DNA of 64,000 nt from Pseudomonas sp. KU43P (GTDB taxonomy: Bacteria; Pseudomonadota; Gammaproteobacteria; Pseudomonadales; Pseudomonadaceae). The stretch covers positions 1 to 64,000 of the forward strand of contig NZ_AP019365.1 in assembly GCF_033095865.1 (NCBI RefSeq). Reading direction: 5' to 3'. The notes below the pieces were generated by a model. The model saw only the letters and a list, made by a program, of their open reading frames with translations, made no database searches and was not told where the DNA came from. The translations under genes and the position numbers were made by a program. This document shows, one piece after another, positions 6,323-12,340 of the stretch. The first letter of the stretch is position 1. Every line of letters begins with the position of its first letter.

Positions 6323-6407
6323 TCAGGTGAGGTTCACAGAATAGCTGCACGGTTTCACAAATAGTTGACCGGCCGGGCTCCAACCCTGGTCCCTGTCGGT
6401 CACCATC

Positions 6408-6432
6408 AGCCCGCCCTCGCGGGCTTTTTTTT
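6408..6432 (+). terminator. Rho-independent terminator of the dnaA-gyrB block
   Basis: A 7-bp stem AGCCCGC/GCGGGCT with a 4-nt loop is followed directly by seven more T residues. It lies 85 bp after the gyrB stop. The next 140 bp (6433-6572) show no gene. Confidence 0.9.
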
Positions 6433-6572
6433 GCTTGGAGTTCCGCCGGTACGCCCTACTCCGCTCATTGGAAATTTAGGAGGGTAGGAATGCATTGAGC
6501 AAGAGATCTGATGGGCGGCCGAGAAAGCTCAAAAGGTCATAGGGTGGACCTTAGGTGTTGAGGAACATCACC

Positions 6573-6604
6573 ATGAAAAAGCCCGCGTAAGCGGGCTTTT
6601 TCAT
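6573..6604. terminator. Bidirectional terminator between gyrB and the membrane-protein gene
   Basis: The inverted repeat AAAAAGCCCGC/GCGGGCTTTTT has a 4-nt loop, so it has T tracts in both directions. It is placed to stop read-through from gyrB and to end the minus-strand gene that stops at 6638. Confidence 0.85.
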
Positions 6605-6637
6605 GTGAGCAGGATTCAGTATTGCAGACGCTTGGAC

Positions 6638-7075
6638 TCAAGGTTGCGTGAAGGTGCCCCAGACTTGCACCACTCCCACCAGATGCACTAGGCCGTATAC
6701 CAGGCAGATCGCAGAGCTGACCCAGATAAAACGGCTACTGCGGCCTGTGCCGGCCAATGCAAATGGGCCCAGCATACCCCGGAGGAGATAAACCAAGGTT
6801 ATGGCGCAAAGTGCTGGCCCTAGCAGAGGCAGCGGTGCAATCAAACCTGCACCGGAGAGTCCATAGGCTGCCCAGGCAGCAAGAACCAGTGCAATACCCG
6901 CCGTTACCACAGCCGGGAACCAACGGCCTGCTTGTGCCGCGCGAACAAAACCCTCGCCTGCGCCAAACAGGCGATACCACGATGGCCCTACCATTATCAC
7001 CCCCACATGCATCAAGGATGCTAAGAGGCTGAGCCCTGCACCGATCGCTAAGGCCAAGTTGTATTCAGTTGCCAC
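6638..7075 (-). CDS. Small integral membrane protein, unknown function
   Basis: The family is not recognised. The chosen GTG start follows a GAGGAG ribosome site by 7 nt and gives about 145 residues (VATEYNLALAIGAGLSLLAS). Longer upstream frames are open but lack a matching ribosome site. The sequence has about four hydrophobic segments: residues about 5-25, 45-68, 75-98 and 113-135. The short loops contain few charged residues. There is no catalytic motif. It stands alone on the minus strand, ending before a bidirectional terminator. The neighbouring segment is a rearrangement scar, so it may be a survivor of a larger cluster. Confidence 0.6.
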   Translation of the reverse strand: MATEYNLALAIGAGLSLLASLMHVGVIMVGPSWYRLFGAGEGFVRAAQAGRWFPAVVTAGIALVLAAWAAYGLSGAGLIAPLPLLGPALCAITLVYLLRGMLGPFALAGTGRSSRFIWVSSAICLVYGLVHLVGVVQVWGTFTQP

Positions 7076-7170
7076 GTCATCGCTCCTCGATGGAATGCAG
7101 CTATGAGCCCTATGAGAATTGCCGAATGCAGCATAGTCGCCACTGTGCATGCGAGGCGCCCATAAGATCG

Positions 7171-7560
7171 TCAAAGGCTCGTCTGGGCCTCAGCGCGGGT
7201 ACCGATATCCATGATCTGATAACGCACCTTGCGGCCACTGACGGCTGCGGCGGCCTCCACGCCTCCGGTCATGGCGCCGAATATGCCATGGCCAGTACGG
7301 GTGGAAGCGCCACACAGGTATAAGTTTCGAATCTCGGTTTTTGTGCCTGGGCGATTGTGCAGGAAGTATTTGGGGGTAAGCGCCAGGCCATAGGAAGAGT
7401 GGATACCCATGAAATCCCCGACCTGTTGCAGCATTTTGAAGTATCGGTTGATTCCGGTCTTTTCTTTGGGGAATGCTTCGATGAGCCGTTCACGGAAACA
7501 TTCATAGCCGCGTGGGATGGCATCTACCACTTCTGTAACTGCTGAGCCAACCGGTGGGAT
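7171..7560 (-). pseudogene. Remnant of an FAD-dependent (CrtI/retinol saturase-like) oxidoreductase
   Basis: This is a broken gene. The readable frame has TEVVDAIPRGYECFRERLIE, then FPKEKTGINRYFKMLQQV, and soon afterwards the C-terminal FAD-site motif NLYLCGASTRTGHGIFGAM. In the phytoene desaturase/retinol saturase family the first two segments normally sit near residue 150-190 and the last near residue 470, so some 280 residues appear to be missing internally. No N-terminal dinucleotide-binding motif is attached, and a stop lies just upstream in frame. A likely N-terminal scrap lies inverted at 7992. The family assignment rests mainly on the C-terminal motif. Confidence 0.65.
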
Positions 7561-7602
7561 AGTTTGAAACTATGATCGGCGCTGCTTCGCGATTGTTGGG
7601 CG

Positions 7603-7890
7603 TTGCGAAATATGCATAGTTTATTACCTGCAGATCACCCATTTGCATCGGCGGATATTCAAAGATGGCCTGTTGAAAGTCCAGTGGCCGCACCTCAGCC
7701 AGAGCATCTACCTGAGGAGATAGGGCCTGAGTTGGTATCAACGATGGCCAGGGGCAGAGGGCGAAAGGATCTGGGGGAACTGGCGCAAGCACTAGAGCAG
7801 TTCAAGGGCTCACGCAGCGAGCTTGCCGCGCATCTGGGTCTGAGCGAACGCACCTTGTACCGGCGCTTGAAAGCACTTGGATTGAATTAG
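7603..7890 (+). pseudogene. Detached C-terminal Fis-type HTH of the neighbouring sigma-54 regulator, inverted
   Basis: The last 45 residues (KDLGELAQALEQF, then GSRSELAAHLGLSERTLYRR) form a Fis-type helix-turn-helix, as found at the end of NtrC-family activators. There is no receiver or AAA+ domain in front of it. The adjacent minus-strand sigma-54 regulator ends abruptly after its AAA+ domain and has no such tail. The simplest reading is that this is its missing end, turned round by an inversion. The TTG at 7603 is nominal. The true left edge of the inverted piece is somewhere in about 7552-7640. Confidence 0.7.
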
Positions 7891-7991
7891 GCCGGTAGGT
7901 ATCTGAAGCGGGGCGCCAGCGCCAGTGTAGAGCGGTTTTATTATTCAGTAGGCAACAGTACATCGATTCAAGACACTGCTTTGCTACCGTC

Positions 7992-8015
7992 ATGAAAACA
8001 GCATATGACGTGATC
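7992..8015 (+). pseudogene. Probable N-terminal scrap of the FAD oxidoreductase
   Basis: An ATG opens MKTAYDVI, the kind of N-terminus that precedes the VIGAG dinucleotide-binding motif in CrtI-like oxidoreductases. It then runs into the antisense of the regulator, with no family sequence. Reversing the segment of about 0.47 kb between roughly 7555 and 8030 would place this scrap directly in front of the minus-strand remnant at 7171-7560. The scrap is only eight codons, so the assignment is inference from position and sequence style. Confidence 0.4.
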
Positions 8016-8027
8016 TATTCTTTGATC

Positions 8028-9110
8028 TCACCGCACCCTTTCCAGAACGTTGCGCAACTCGCGTATGTTGCCTGGGAATGGATGCAGGCTCAGACGTTGC
8101 AGCACCTCATCAGTCAAACTCGGCGGCGGCGCTCCTGGCATGCGCTGTAGCAGGCTTTGCGCCAGCAGCGGCAGATCTTCCAGACGCTCGCGTAACGCTG
8201 GCAAGCGAATGGGGAACCCGCTGATTCTGTAATACAGGTCTTCACGGAAATTGCCGTTTGCCACCATATTCTTCAGGGGTTTATGGGTCGCCGATACCAA
8301 ACGAAAGTCTGAGTGCACCGTACGTAGGCTACCCACTGGGCGGAAGCTGCCCGATTCGATCAAACGCAACAACTTGACCTGCATGGCCAGCGGCACCTCA
8401 CCGATTTCATCGAGAAACAGCGTGCCGCCATGGGCCGCTTCGGCAAGGCCGATCTTGCGCTGGTTGGCGCCTGTGAAGGCGCCTTTCTCGTAGCCAAACA
8501 GTTCACTTTCGAACAACGACTCCGTCAGGCCGGTACAGTCCACCACCACCAAAGGGCCGTTGGCCCGAGGGCTGCCCATGTGGATCGCACGGGCGAAGAG
8601 TTCCTTTCCAGTACCCGATTCCCCTTGGAGCAGCACCGGGATTTGTGCGGGCGCCGCACGCTGTAGGCTGGCCAATGCATGCTTGAAGGCAGGCGCGCGC
8701 CCGACCAGACCCTGCTGCTGAGGTTGTGCCGAGGCTAAGGTCACGGTAGTCAGGCGCTCGACGAAGGCCACCACCTTGCCCTGCTCATCGAGGATGGGCC
8801 GCAGTTCCACATCCACATGTTCGGGCCCGCGCGGGGTATGGTGAATATGCAGTACACGTTCCGGCAACTTGCTGTCCCAAGCCTTGCGCATCGGGCAATG
8901 CTCACCGGCCTGGTCGCAGGGCACGGCATAGTGATGCGAGACGCGGTGACACTTCTCGCCCAGAGGCGCTTGCTGGTCACGGCCGAACAACCGGCGATAG
9001 GCCGCGTTGGCCGCGAGGATGTTGTAGTCGGTATCCAGCACGATCGTAGGCAGCGCATCGTGTTCGAGGTAGGAAACCAGAGCTAGGATGATGGAACGGG
9101 ATTCAGGCAT
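8028..9110 (-). CDS. FisR-like sigma-54-dependent sulfide-responsive regulator, C-terminally truncated
   Basis: The 360-residue product starts [24 protein letters not shown]-like sensor domain (residues about 15-120) holds Cys54, Cys65 and Cys72. This 11/7 spacing matches the three persulfide-sensing cysteines described for FisR of Cupriavidus, offset by one. The AAA+ domain has Walker A GESGTGKE, the sigma-54 contact loop GAFTGA, Walker [12 protein letters not shown] and PGNIRELRN. The protein stops at LERVR, so the Fis-type HTH is missing; a matching HTH lies inverted at 7603-7890. It is divergent from the persulfide dioxygenase operon, its expected target. Without the HTH it may be inactive or act without binding enhancer sites. 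Confidence 0.85.
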
Positions 9111-9147
9111 GACGGCACCGATGGATGACGCACGCAGGGTAACAAGG

Positions 9148-9221
9148 ACTGCCAAGCACTGCCATTGGCTGACAGTCGACTGCCATCCCGGCTGCCAATC
9201 TGCCAAACGCCAAGCCGGCAG
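9148..9221 (+). promoter_or_regulatory. Cluster of CTGCCA repeats, candidate enhancer sites for the FisR-like regulator
   Basis: Five direct copies of CTGCCA start at 9149, 9159, 9180, 9192 and 9200. An imperfect palindrome ACTGCCA-N5-TGACAGT lies at 9158-9176, and GGCAG in the opposite sense at 9217-9221. The cluster lies roughly 40-135 bp upstream of two candidate sigma-54 promoters, where enhancer sites for such activators are usual. The repeats are seen directly; binding by the FisR-like protein is inferred. Confidence 0.5.
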
Positions 9222-9257
9222 TGGCCAATTTTCCTGGCTTTCAGGGCTCCAACAGCC

Positions 9258-9297
9258 TGGCATGCATCTTGATAAACCTCCTGGCACCGCCTACGCC
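9258..9297 (+). promoter_or_regulatory. Candidate -24/-12 sigma-54 promoters of the sulfide-oxidation operon
   Basis: Two overlapping candidates are visible. TGGCATG-CATC-TTGAT (9258-9273) fits the consensus closely but has GA in place of the -12 GC. TGGCACC-N5-CGCC (9282-9297) keeps the GG-N10-GC spacing (9283-9284 and 9295-9296) but lacks TT before GC. Either would start transcription 25-60 bp before the dioxygenase start codon at 9333. A sigma-54 activator gene lies next door, which supports this type of promoter. Confidence 0.45.
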
Positions 9298-9332
9298 TCT
9301 ATCAAGGCGCGGTGGATTATTTGGAGAACGTG

Positions 9333-10217
9333 ATGATCATCGGCAACAACCTTCACGTGGAAGCCTTCTTCGACAAGGCAACCTCGACCATCAGCTACCT
9401 GGTCATGGACGGCGAGACGCGCAAGTGCGCATTGATCGACAGCGTCCTCGACTACGATCCCAAGTCCGGACGCACCTGCACCGCCTCGGCCGACCTGCTG
9501 ATTGCCCGGGTAAAGGCACTCGGTGCCGAGGTGCAGTGGGTGCTGGAAACCCACGTGCATGCCGACCACCTTTCGGCTGCGGCGTATCTCAAGGAACACC
9601 TGGGTGGCCATACCGCCATTGGTGCGCACATCACCCAGGTGCAGAAGGTATTCGGTTCGCTGTTCAACGCGGAACCTGACTTCGCCCGCGACGGCAGCCA
9701 GTTCGATGTGCTGCTCGAAGATGAAGAAGGCTTCCGTATCGGCAACCTGCACGCCCGTGCCCTGCACACCCCTGGGCATACCCCGGCCTGCATGAGCTAT
9801 GTGGTTCAGGATGCTGGGGAAAAGGCGGTGTTCGTTGGCGACACCCTGTTCATGCCGGATTACGGCACCGCGCGCTGCGACTTCCCCGGCGCCGATGCCA
9901 GAACGCTGTATCGCTCCATCCGCCGTTTGCTGGCCTTCCCAGACCAGACTCAACTGTTCATGTGCCACGACTACCTGCCAGGTGGCCGGGACGTGCAGTA
10001 CGCGACCACCGTGGCCGAACAGCGCGCCAACAACATCCACATCCATCAAGGCATCGACGAAGACAGCTTCGTGGCCATGCGCGAAGCCCGCGACAAGACC
10101 CTCGACATGCCCGTGCTGATCCTGCCTTCGGTGCAGGTGAACATGCGCAGCGGTCATTTCCCCGAGCCGGAGGAAAACGGCGTGAGCTATCTGAAGATCC
10201 CGCTGAACAAGCTTTGA
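9333..10217 (+). CDS. Persulfide dioxygenase (ETHE1/Blh-like metallo-beta-lactamase fold)
   Basis: The enzyme oxidises glutathione persulfide to sulfite with O2 and a single iron. The metallo-beta-lactamase motifs are THVHADHLSAA (metal ligands), HTPGHTPACMSY and VFVGDTLF, followed by CDFPGADARTLYRSI as in bacterial Blh proteins. The ATG at 9333 follows a TTGGAG site by 6 nt and gives 294 residues; an in-frame GTG at 9312 lacks a good site. It is the first gene of a three-gene operon with an SQR-like flavoprotein and a TauE/SafE exporter, matching a sulfide to persulfide to sulfite detoxification route. Confidence 0.88.
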   Translation: MIIGNNLHVEAFFDKATSTISYLVMDGETRKCALIDSVLDYDPKSGRTCTASADLLIARVKALGAEVQWVLETHVHADHLSAAAYLKEHLGGHTAIGAHITQVQKVFGSLFNAEPDFARDGSQFDVLLEDEEGFRIGNLHARALHTPGHTPACMSYVVQDAGEKAVFVGDTLFMPDYGTARCDFPGADARTLYRSIRRLLAFPDQTQLFMCHDYLPGGRDVQYATTVAEQRANNIHIHQGIDEDSFVAMREARDKTLDMPVLILPSVQVNMRSGHFPEPEENGVSYLKIPLNKL

Positions 10218-10256: not shown

Positions 10257-11525
10257 ATGCCTGCCTTGTTGTCCCCAACTCATGCCGACCACCACAAAGT
10301 GGTCATCGTCGGCGCCGGTGCCGCGGGTATCGCCACCGCCTCCAGCCTGATCAGCCGCGACCCGTCTCTGGACATTGCCCTGATCGATCCCGCCGACGTG
10401 CATTATTACCAGCCCGGCTGGACCATGGTCGGCGCAGGTGTATTCAAAGCGCCAAGCACTGCGCGCACCATGGCGTCGGCCATTCCTCGCGGTGTGCATT
10501 GGGTGAAAGCTCGCGTTCAAGGTTTTGACCCTTCGGCCCAACTGGTCATGCTCGAGGACGGCCGCGCCATCAGTTATGAACAGCTGGTGGTCTGCCCTGG
10601 CCTGAAGCTCGACTGGGAAGCCATTGCCGGGCTCAGTGAAACACTGGGTCGCAATGGTGTGACCTCCAACTACCGTTATGACCTGGCGCCCTACACCTGG
10701 CAGCTTGTGCAAATGCTCAAGCAAGGACGTGCGCTGTTCACTCAACCGCCCATGCCGATCAAATGCGCCGGCGCGCCACAAAAGGCGCTGTACCTGTCCT
10801 GCGACCATTGGCTGCGCCATGGCCACCTTGGCAACGTCAAAGCCAGCTTCTTCAATGCGGGCGCCGTGCTGTTCGGGGTGCCCGACTATGTACCCGCGCT
10901 GATGGCCTACATCGACAAGTATGGTGTCGACCTCAACTACAACCACCGCCTGGTTGCCGTGGACGGCCCGAACAAGCGCGCGACCTTCGCCCGCACCCTC
11001 GCCGATGGCAGCAGCGAAACCCGCACTGAAACTTTCGACATGTTGCACGTCGTGCCGTCGCAGGTGGCTCCCGATTTCATTCGGCAGAGCCCGTTGGCCG
11101 ATGCCGCTGGCTGGGTCGATGTCGACCCTCGGACCTTGCGCCATCGCCAGTTCGCCAACGTCCATGCCTTGGGTGACGTAGCCAACACCAGCAACGCCAA
11201 GACCGCTGCAGCGGCGCGCAAGCAGGCGCCGGTGGTGGCCAACAATGTGCTGGTGGCGCTTGGCAGGCTGCCTACCCTGGCCGAGTACGATGGCTACGGC
11301 TCCTGCCCGCTGACCGTCGAGCGCGGCAAGATCGTGCTGGCCGAGTTCACCTACGGCGGCAAGGTCGCGCCCAGTTTTCCACGCTGGCTGCTCGACGGCC
11401 GCAAGCCGACCCGCTTGGCCTGGCTCCTCAAGGCGCGGGTACTGCCCCCGCTGTACTGGCAAGGCATGCTCAAGGGGCGCGAATGGATGGCGCGGCCCCA
11501 GCCACTGGTCGAGGCTCGCCAGTGA
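10257..11525 (+). CDS. Sulfide:quinone oxidoreductase-like FAD-dependent protein
   Basis: The 422-residue flavoprotein has an N-terminal FAD-binding motif VVIVGAGAAGIATA near residue 15 and YYQPGWTMVGAGVF, typical of SQR-like proteins. A second nucleotide-binding region contains IKCAGAPQKALYLSCDHW with a candidate redox cysteine, and a C-terminal segment ends ALGDVANTSNAKTAAAARKQ. In the pathway it oxidises sulfide to persulfide and passes electrons to quinone. It lies 39 bp after the persulfide dioxygenase, and its stop overlaps the next start. The exact SQR type is not settled by eye. Confidence 0.82.
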   Translation: MPALLSPTHADHHKVVIVGAGAAGIATASSLISRDPSLDIALIDPADVHYYQPGWTMVGAGVFKAPSTARTMASAIPRGVHWVKARVQGFDPSAQLVMLEDGRAISYEQLVVCPGLKLDWEAIAGLSETLGRNGVTSNYRYDLAPYTWQLVQMLKQGRALFTQPPMPIKCAGAPQKALYLSCDHWLRHGHLGNVKASFFNAGAVLFGVPDYVPALMAYIDKYGVDLNYNHRLVAVDGPNKRATFARTLADGSSETRTETFDMLHVVPSQVAPDFIRQSPLADAAGWVDVDPRTLRHRQFANVHALGDVANTSNAKTAAAARKQAPVVANNVLVALGRLPTLAEYDGYGSCPLTVERGKIVLAEFTYGGKVAPSFPRWLLDGRKPTRLAWLLKARVLPPLYWQGMLKGREWMARPQPLVEARQ

Positions 11526-12340
11526 TCGAACATGAACTGCTGGGCGCTGGCCTCGGCGCTGTCATTGGTGCGGTGCTGGCGCTGACGGGGGCCGGCGGTG
11601 GAATCCTGGCGGTACCGCTGCTGGTGTTCGGCCTGGGACTGTCGATGGTCGAAGCGGCGCCTATCGGGTTGTTGGCGGTGGGCCTGGCGGCGGCTGTGGG
11701 GGCGGTGCTGGGGTTGCGTCAGGGGCTGGTGCGCTACCGCGCCGCCCTGTTCATCGCCCTTATCGGTATTGCTGCTGCTCCGTTCGGGCTGATGCTCGCC
11801 CACCGTTTGCCTAACACACCCCTGGCCCTGGTGTTCGCGGTAGTGCTGGTCTATGCCTGCCTGCGCATCTGGCGCAAGGCAGCCAAGGACCTACGTGGCG
11901 AAACTTCCGAAGCGCACCGCTACATCGAACCTTGCGTACTCAATCCGCTGCAGGGCCGTTTGCGCTGGACGCTGCCTTGCGCGCGAGCCCTGGCCTTCAC
12001 GGGTGCATTGTCGGGGCTGTTGTCCGGATTGCTGGGAGTGGGTGGGGGATTCGTGATCATTCCGGCCTTGAACCGCTACACCAACCTGCGCATGAAAAGC
12101 ATCGTCTCCACCTCGCTGGCAGTGATCGCGCTGGTTTCCATGGGCAGCGTAGTCAGCGCCAGCCTGGCAGGGGTCATGCATTGGCGGGTGGGTGCACCCT
12201 TTGCCGTCGGCGCGGTTCTCGGCTTGCTGGCGGCCCGGCCGCTTGCCGCAAAACTCGCCGGGCCACGTCTGCAGCAGATGTTTGCCGTGGCCGGCTGGTC
12301 GGCTGCCCTACTGTTGGCGGGCAAGGCGCTACTCGGCTAG
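11522..12340 (+). CDS. TauE/SafE family sulfite/anion exporter
   Basis: This 272-residue protein is almost entirely hydrophobic and has the internal duplication of the TauE/SafE family. The two halves carry TGAGGGILAVPLLV near residue 20 and LLGVGGGFVIIPAL near residue 170. It starts at GTG inside the stop of the preceding gene (GTGA overlap), so it is translationally coupled. In context it probably exports sulfite or a related anion made by the dioxygenase. Its end overlaps the convergent LysR gene by 12 bp. Confidence 0.85.
   Translation: MIEHELLGAGLGAVIGAVLALTGAGGGILAVPLLVFGLGLSMVEAAPIGLLAVGLAAAVGAVLGLRQGLVRYRAALFIALIGIAAAPFGLMLAHRLPNTPLALVFAVVLVYACLRIWRKAAKDLRGETSEAHRYIEPCVLNPLQGRLRWTLPCARALAFTGALSGLLSGLLGVGGGFVIIPALNRYTNLRMKSIVSTSLAVIALVSMGSVVSASLAGVMHWRVGAPFAVGAVLGLLAARPLAAKLAGPRLQQMFAVAGWSAALLLAGKALLG

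Follow-up and report, generated by a model that had tools for sequence, protein, structure and literature searches.

The gene for a FisR-type activator lies in two pieces on opposite strands near the start of the Pseudomonas sp. KU43P genome. This arrangement is quite probably best explained by an inversion of about 336 bp that split fisR beside an eroded LuxI/LuxR-type cluster, with induction of the neighbouring pdo-sqr-tauE operon lost or very weak. The window, the whole stretch of 64,000 nucleotides that was analysed, covers the initial 64 kb of a genome of 5.87 Mb, which is present as a single complete contig.

A Regulator Gene Divided between Two Strands

8031..9110, minus strand: truncated FisR of 360 aa with PAS, sigma-54 AAA+ domain and an incomplete lid, from the ORF and Pfam domains
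8028..8030, minus strand: premature FisR stop, supplied by the end of the inverted segment, from reading the ORF
7696..7890, plus strand: C-terminal part of fisR with the Fis-type HTH, 64 codons and a stop, inverted (residues 422-484 of FisR in the relative G155)

The preliminary description of this DNA was right that the regulator ends early and that a Fis-type HTH lies on the plus strand. FisR starts at 9110 on the minus strand, its last codon is number 360 and the stop is at 8028-8030. The protein holds a sensory domain (PF08448, E 1.4e-21) and a sigma-54 AAA+ domain (PF00158, E 7.7e-65). The HTH, which a FisR-type activator carries in the same protein, is here encoded on the opposite strand, where a Pfam search found PF02954 (E 6.8e-10).

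The pieces are complementary when aligned with FisR of G155, a reference of 484 residues that is numbered from an early start. Residues 50-413 correspond to minus-strand 8031-9122 and residues 422-484 to plus-strand 7696-7887, with zero overlap; eight fisR codons are absent between the two pieces. The alignment to relatives with an intact FisR, which had been proposed as a check, showed the AAA+ domain and the HTH within a single ORF in all 48 loci (one duplicate genome removed). Judged by these alignments, the plus-strand HTH is the missing C-terminus of the minus-strand FisR. An inversion that separated the sensor/ATPase from its DNA-binding domain is well supported by the complementary residues, the 48 intact relatives and the ancestor-like locus of G155. 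This part of the original claim is upheld, whereas the size of the inverted segment, its left end, the flanking repeat and the second gene said to be repaired by turning it back are not.

Among the best 120 of 5545 FisR matches, as read from the table, all are annotated with a Fis HTH except P0107. This protein of 402 aa without the HTH is the sole comparable truncation among those 120, which were clustered at 90%, a step that could conceal another truncated one. The named matches include P. plecoglossicida, P. guariconensis and P. putida, and C54, C65 and C72 are invariant across 10 aligned FisR proteins. No intact fisR paralogue was found in the strain's own genome, which gave 20 matches including FisR itself, the next best being 49% identical in the AAA+ part alone. 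A search with the free-standing HTH ORF found no near-identical relatives among 18 proteins, the best having 76% identity over two thirds. No paper on an inversion splitting such an activator was found in a literature search. The inverted HTH sits in a 95-codon open frame (7603-7890) with possible TTG and ATG starts.

Probable Remains of a LuxI/LuxR-Type Cluster

6572..6605: terminator-like element with an inverted repeat, following gyrB; L246 has it between gyrB and fisR too
6659..7090, minus strand: small membrane protein, 73.6% identity to G155
7174..7395, minus strand: FAD oxidoreductase remnant, residues 473-546, 92% match
7396..7524, minus strand: FAD oxidoreductase remnant, residues 115-157, 88% match
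7517..7645, minus strand: fragment of a LuxR-type regulator, autoinducer-binding domain, residues 26-68 (PF03472, G094, G155)
7655..7687, minus strand: predicted luxR promoter region, matched upstream of luxR in G155 (0/300 shuffles as good)
7989..8017, plus strand: luxR-upstream-like DNA containing the reading frame MKTAYDVI, from the match to G155

The scraps in the gyrB-fisR spacer are likely what is left of a quorum-sensing gene cluster. The same interval in G155 begins with a membrane protein, an oxidoreductase, a second oxidoreductase, an SDR, a hydrolase and a third oxidoreductase, and continues with an AurF-like oxygenase, MaoC, a ketoacyl synthase, luxI, luxR, a small gene and fisR; about 10 kb of LuxI/LuxR-type biosynthetic genes thus lie between the oxidoreductase and luxR. 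The scraps in the window are collinear with it, in the order membrane protein, oxidoreductase, luxR and luxR-upstream DNA, and the G155 order is likely to be the ancestral one. Genes, order and place agree; the difference is that the cluster looks complete in G155 (13.4 kb), whereas the window has scraps alone. The small gene between luxR and fisR is an extra in G155.

The oxidoreductase remnant (7174-7524) consists of residues 115-157 fused to residues 473-546, with 315 codons gone between them. The deletion is in frame, and a 119-codon ORF at 7171-7530 could still be translated. The remnant protein was located on a single contig in a search among 5.8 billion proteins. Among 398 genomes sampled, matches at E 0.001 or better came from 10 further ones, of which four matched weakly and six have intact frames of 545-574 residues. 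In these six loci the small membrane protein also adjoins the oxidoreductase, and in three of them a LuxR gene lies about 10 kb away (LuxR was searched in 298 genomes). The rest of the oxidoreductase was not found in the strain's own genome, the sole weak match being to residues 17-72 (E 1e-3), and the ketoacyl synthase matches there are 38% and 35% identical. The LuxR fragment matches PF03472 at E 0.0052, under the curated cut-off, and aligns over 38 residues, at 66% identity, with a LuxR frame of 245 codons in G094 (E 4e-13). In G094 and G166, the related oxidoreductase and LuxR are about 10 kb apart but elsewhere in the genome.

The far side of the inverted segment is most likely the luxR-upstream DNA of this eroded cluster. 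Positions 7989-8017 match the DNA upstream of luxR in G155 with a score of 26, which 4 of 300 shuffles equalled over 1.7 kb. Against targets of 363 bp and 101 bp, both picked after the first match had been seen, 8 and 1 of 3000 shuffles were as good. If the segment is turned back in thought, this match and that of 7655-7687 come to lie 20 bases apart, compared with 26 in G155.

Both gyrB and fisR are on the stretch taken in 32 of 49 loci, with a spacing of 73 to 13,380 bp (under 90 bp in nine), and matches to cluster proteins occur in G155 alone of the 49. In G299, G361 and G332, the nearest species by the long fisR piece, the gap is 76-80 bp and holds no cluster. The case for the cluster's former presence is therefore made by the window's scraps and one more distant relative, in the face of nearest species that lack it. 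The terminator-like element is shared with L246, a relative without the cluster, and we infer that it marks the gyrB-side edge of the insertion.

With its range of 73 bp to 13.4 kb among 32 loci, the gyrB-fisR spacer, at 6323-8030 in the window, resembles an insertion hot spot (L245-L264, L201-L220, L052 and L167 included). L167 (2522-14838) carries a LuxI/LuxR-type cluster of about 12 kb with an AurF-like oxygenase, a ketoacyl synthase, MaoC, an SDR and three FAD oxidoreductases. A tRNA search of 1-30000 found none. No title among the literature matches listed names the LuxI/LuxR-type cluster.

The Target Operon and the Truncated Activator

9147..9185: predicted enhancer sites for FisR, made up of ACTGCCA/TGACAGT repeats, with a core conserved in the alignment
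9257..9273, plus strand: predicted -24/-12 sigma-54 promoter CTGGCATGCATCTTGAT of the sulfide operon, conserved, a sequence match
9324..10217, plus strand: persulfide dioxygenase (PDO), dioxygenase part of the Blh model
10257..11525, plus strand: sulfide:quinone oxidoreductase (SQR), E 7e-92 to a solved SQR
11483..12340, plus strand: TauE/SafE-type exporter, PF01925, E 6.8e-41

Next to fisR, and divergent from it, lies pdo-sqr-tauE with a predicted sigma-54 promoter, which is a sequence match and not a measured start. PDO matches the dioxygenase part of the Blh model at E 5.3e-114, under that model's full-length cut-off. The stretch TGGCATGCATCTTGAT of the predicted promoter is identical in 13 of 16 relatives and the remaining three differ inside it; the conservation of promoter and enhancer was read from 17 of 50 alignment rows, namely the window and these 16 relatives. 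According to the available portion of one report, fisR of Acinetobacter baumannii has the same divergent layout with a sulfide-oxidation operon, and its deletion abolishes sulfide induction of that equivalent operon (PMC7315123). The same portion states in passing that Cupriavidus FisR uses cysteines of its regulatory domain, which A. baumannii FisR lacks (PMC7315123). The relatives of the window's protein resemble these two in having a sensor, an AAA+ domain and a Fis HTH and in being divergent from pdo-sqr-tauE with its predicted sigma-54 promoter. Here, in contrast, the opposite strand encodes the HTH, and the AAA+ domain lacks the last part of its lid.

The truncation affects more than DNA binding. 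The Pfam lid model is matched at positions 1-56 of 87, so that the complete AAA+ domain with lid of a FlgR-like activator is not present, and the FisR alignment falls about 21-40 residues short of where solved single-domain ATPase constructs end. Two AlphaFold models were too poor for use (mean pLDDT 39.5 and 42.4). Since the lid is clipped, the HTH is gone, the target sites are conserved and loss of fisR abolishes induction in A. baumannii, sulfide-inducible activation of pdo-sqr-tauE would most likely be lost or very weak. The earlier forecast for this locus, a sulfide sensor unable to bind enhancers, is a fair prediction, but with the lid end also clipped, plain loss of FisR function would be at least as likely.

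It is unlikely that the truncated FisR works as an enhancer-independent activator from solution in the manner of Helicobacter pylori FlgR. The reading is consistent with the strong conservation of the truncated protein and with its intact 14-residue and LFLDE stretches, both of which we presume to have their motif roles in FisR. As far as the accessible parts of two papers go, activators without a DNA-binding domain do function, natural and engineered ones alike, H. pylori FlgR and DctD250 being the examples, with expression from DctD250 nearly ten-fold below that from the cognate activator at the one promoter concerned (PMC3930126, PMC3844500). FisR would resemble FlgR and DctD250 as an AAA+ activator without HTH that could engage sigma-54 polymerase from solution. 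The difference is that those proteins work without DNA binding, whereas here the lid is cut short of the solved constructs and the target operon retains its enhancer sites. Because FlgR and DctD250 work without the DNA-binding part, weak residual activity of FisR is possible. It seems rather improbable that FisR might be an enhancer-blind activator, still responsive to sulfide and acting from solution on pdo-sqr and perhaps on further sigma-54 promoters. If it were so, the strain would be a natural experiment in which a specific activator becomes promiscuous.

Age of the Break and Divergence of the 3' End

Neither piece of fisR shows signs of decay. The long piece departs from its relatives at 1 of 209 invariant positions and the tail at 0 of 18; relatives left out one at a time gave 0-5 and 0-2. 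The dN/dS of the AAA+ part is 0.030-0.056 in comparison with the nearest 12 of 27 rows (one genome appearing twice), and that of the tail is 0.068-0.119 in the six of 12 rows where it was computable. The break is therefore probably recent, unless the protein is still used; the absence of decay would also fit continued use.

From codon 281 on (8031-8270 and 7696-7887), fisR is unusually divergent from its nearest relative L245, which suggests that the 3' third may have been imported, perhaps with the cluster, before the inversion. The ratio of 3' to 5' divergence to L245 is 2.61 and exceeds all 1128 pairs among the 48 relatives. Protein P0001 differs from its nearest protein P0002 at 2 places in residues 1-280 and at 16 in residues 281-360, whereas P0002 and P0005 differ at 6 and 4. 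In addition, the fisR tail is nearest to L202 and not to L245. These data are the grounds for an alternative account in which the HTH tail is foreign, having come with the cluster while the native end was lost, or in which the whole 3' third was imported with the cluster prior to inversion. We regard this account as rather doubtful. For L246, L249 and L220 the ratio is less extreme, with 17, 45 and 32 of the 1128 pairs as high, for L202, L051 and L248 it is ordinary, and native placement is not rejected by AU tests (p 0.661 with codons 281-424, p 0.385 with the tail). Moreover, the divergent zone begins about 80 codons before the break, so any import would predate the break. A recombination boundary may lie near fisR codon 281.

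The Probable Inverted Segment and Its Junctions

7695..8030: inverted segment, about 336 bp, with homology-defined ends
7688..7694: direct repeat CCGCACC at the left junction, from the sequence
8031..8037: direct repeat CCGCACC at the right junction, from the sequence

We infer a segment of about 336 bp and an event resembling a repair accident from the matches on either side of the junctions, the direct 7-bp repeat and the lack of an inverted repeat. A direct match as long as CCGCACC was seen in 2.1% of 4955 random place pairs, so the repeat is no more than suggestive as a signature of the event. Inverted matches at the junctions reach just 3 bp, too little for the inverted repeats of an invertible switch.

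That the junctions are an artefact of assembly or sequencing is quite improbable. The rearrangement is present in one assembly only, as an artefact would be, but that assembly is a single complete contig, and a repeat search of 7660-8060 found none longer than 17 bases. An artefact would also have to account for the loss of eight codons, the microhomology at both joints and the erosion of the neighbouring scraps.

The version first put forward, in which CGGTGGGAT (7552) and CGGTGAGAT (8025) bound an inversion of 0.47 kb and an oxidoreductase N-terminus, MKTAYDVI, was severed from its remnant as well, is very improbable, even though its half concerning the HTH and the regulator is correct. The left boundary lies near 7695 and not at 7552-7560. 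The proposed flanking repeat does not exceed chance: within 7501-8100 there are 2 inverted pairs of 9-mers that differ at one position or none and lie at least 300 apart, compared with 1-13 in 12 shuffles. Its left copy and the adjoining palindrome (7552-7573), taken as the inversion edge, are both codons of the LuxR fragment at 7517-7645, a fragment that sits between the remnant and the HTH. With the repeat at chance level and G155 contradicting it, the 0.47 kb segment with its inverted repeat and palindrome was rejected as the cause.

The N-terminal part of that version was rejected with less certainty. MKTAYDVI is probably not the start of the oxidoreductase, as intact N-termini differ and its DNA resembles the luxR-upstream region. 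The six intact oxidoreductases start with MQS or MQT, followed by (Y/F)DRFKTLES(D/E)TFDVIVVGAG, some after a few extra residues, and the intact enzyme behind the remnant likewise starts differently. When the residues were compared with the N-termini of OX1, OX2 and OX3, 75, 26 and 873 of 2000 shuffles were as good; for the DNA the numbers were 167, 1216 and 395. The resemblance to an OX2-type N-terminus in the residues thus speaks for the assignment, which is weakened by the remaining data. No ribosome-binding site was seen by eye ahead of the ATG of MKTAYDVI.

A reversible on/off switch of the sulfide response, to which an inversion exactly across the gene might point, is hardly credible and was rejected, since the repeats at the joints are direct rather than inverted and eight codons were lost. 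In Campylobacter jejuni, a gene of the same activator class, flgR, is also switched off by a local DNA change, but, in the portion of the source available, by reversible tract slippage (PMC3930126), in contrast to the present joint without inverted repeats.

Proposed History and Its Meaning

On the inversion account, a biosynthetic cluster of the LuxI/LuxR type, about 13 kb long, probably once lay between gyrB and fisR, as it does in G155. Judging from the collinearity, at least three deletions would have cut it to scraps. In the interval from gyrB to the sulfide-oxidation operon, a piece of about 336 bp was then likely turned round, comprising the fisR tail, its stop, a spacer and luxR-upstream DNA. 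The last 64 fisR codons with the Fis-type HTH would thereby have moved to the other strand, FisR would have come to end at codon 360, and about eight codons would have been lost at the break. Given the 7-base direct repeat and the lack of an inverted repeat at the joints, the likely cause is repair at microhomology, by end-joining or template switching. The remaining FisR presumably folds as a PAS sensor and an AAA+ ATPase that lacks the HTH and the end of the lid; it would have lost its binding to the conserved enhancer sites, and induction of pdo-sqr-tauE would be lost or very weak. Several findings count against this history: the rearrangement is known from one assembly, the nearest species are without the cluster, G155 has a small extra gene, the 3' part of fisR is divergent, and the lack of decay would also fit a protein still in use.

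The locus would then be a snapshot of how the loss of an accessory cluster can damage a chromosomal neighbour, in which the edge of an insertion took the DNA-binding domain of a conserved stress regulator. Conservation extends to the promoter, the enhancer core and the two halves of FisR, so that the strain would be a clean system in which to ask if any sulfide control persists in a sensor-ATPase that lacks its HTH.
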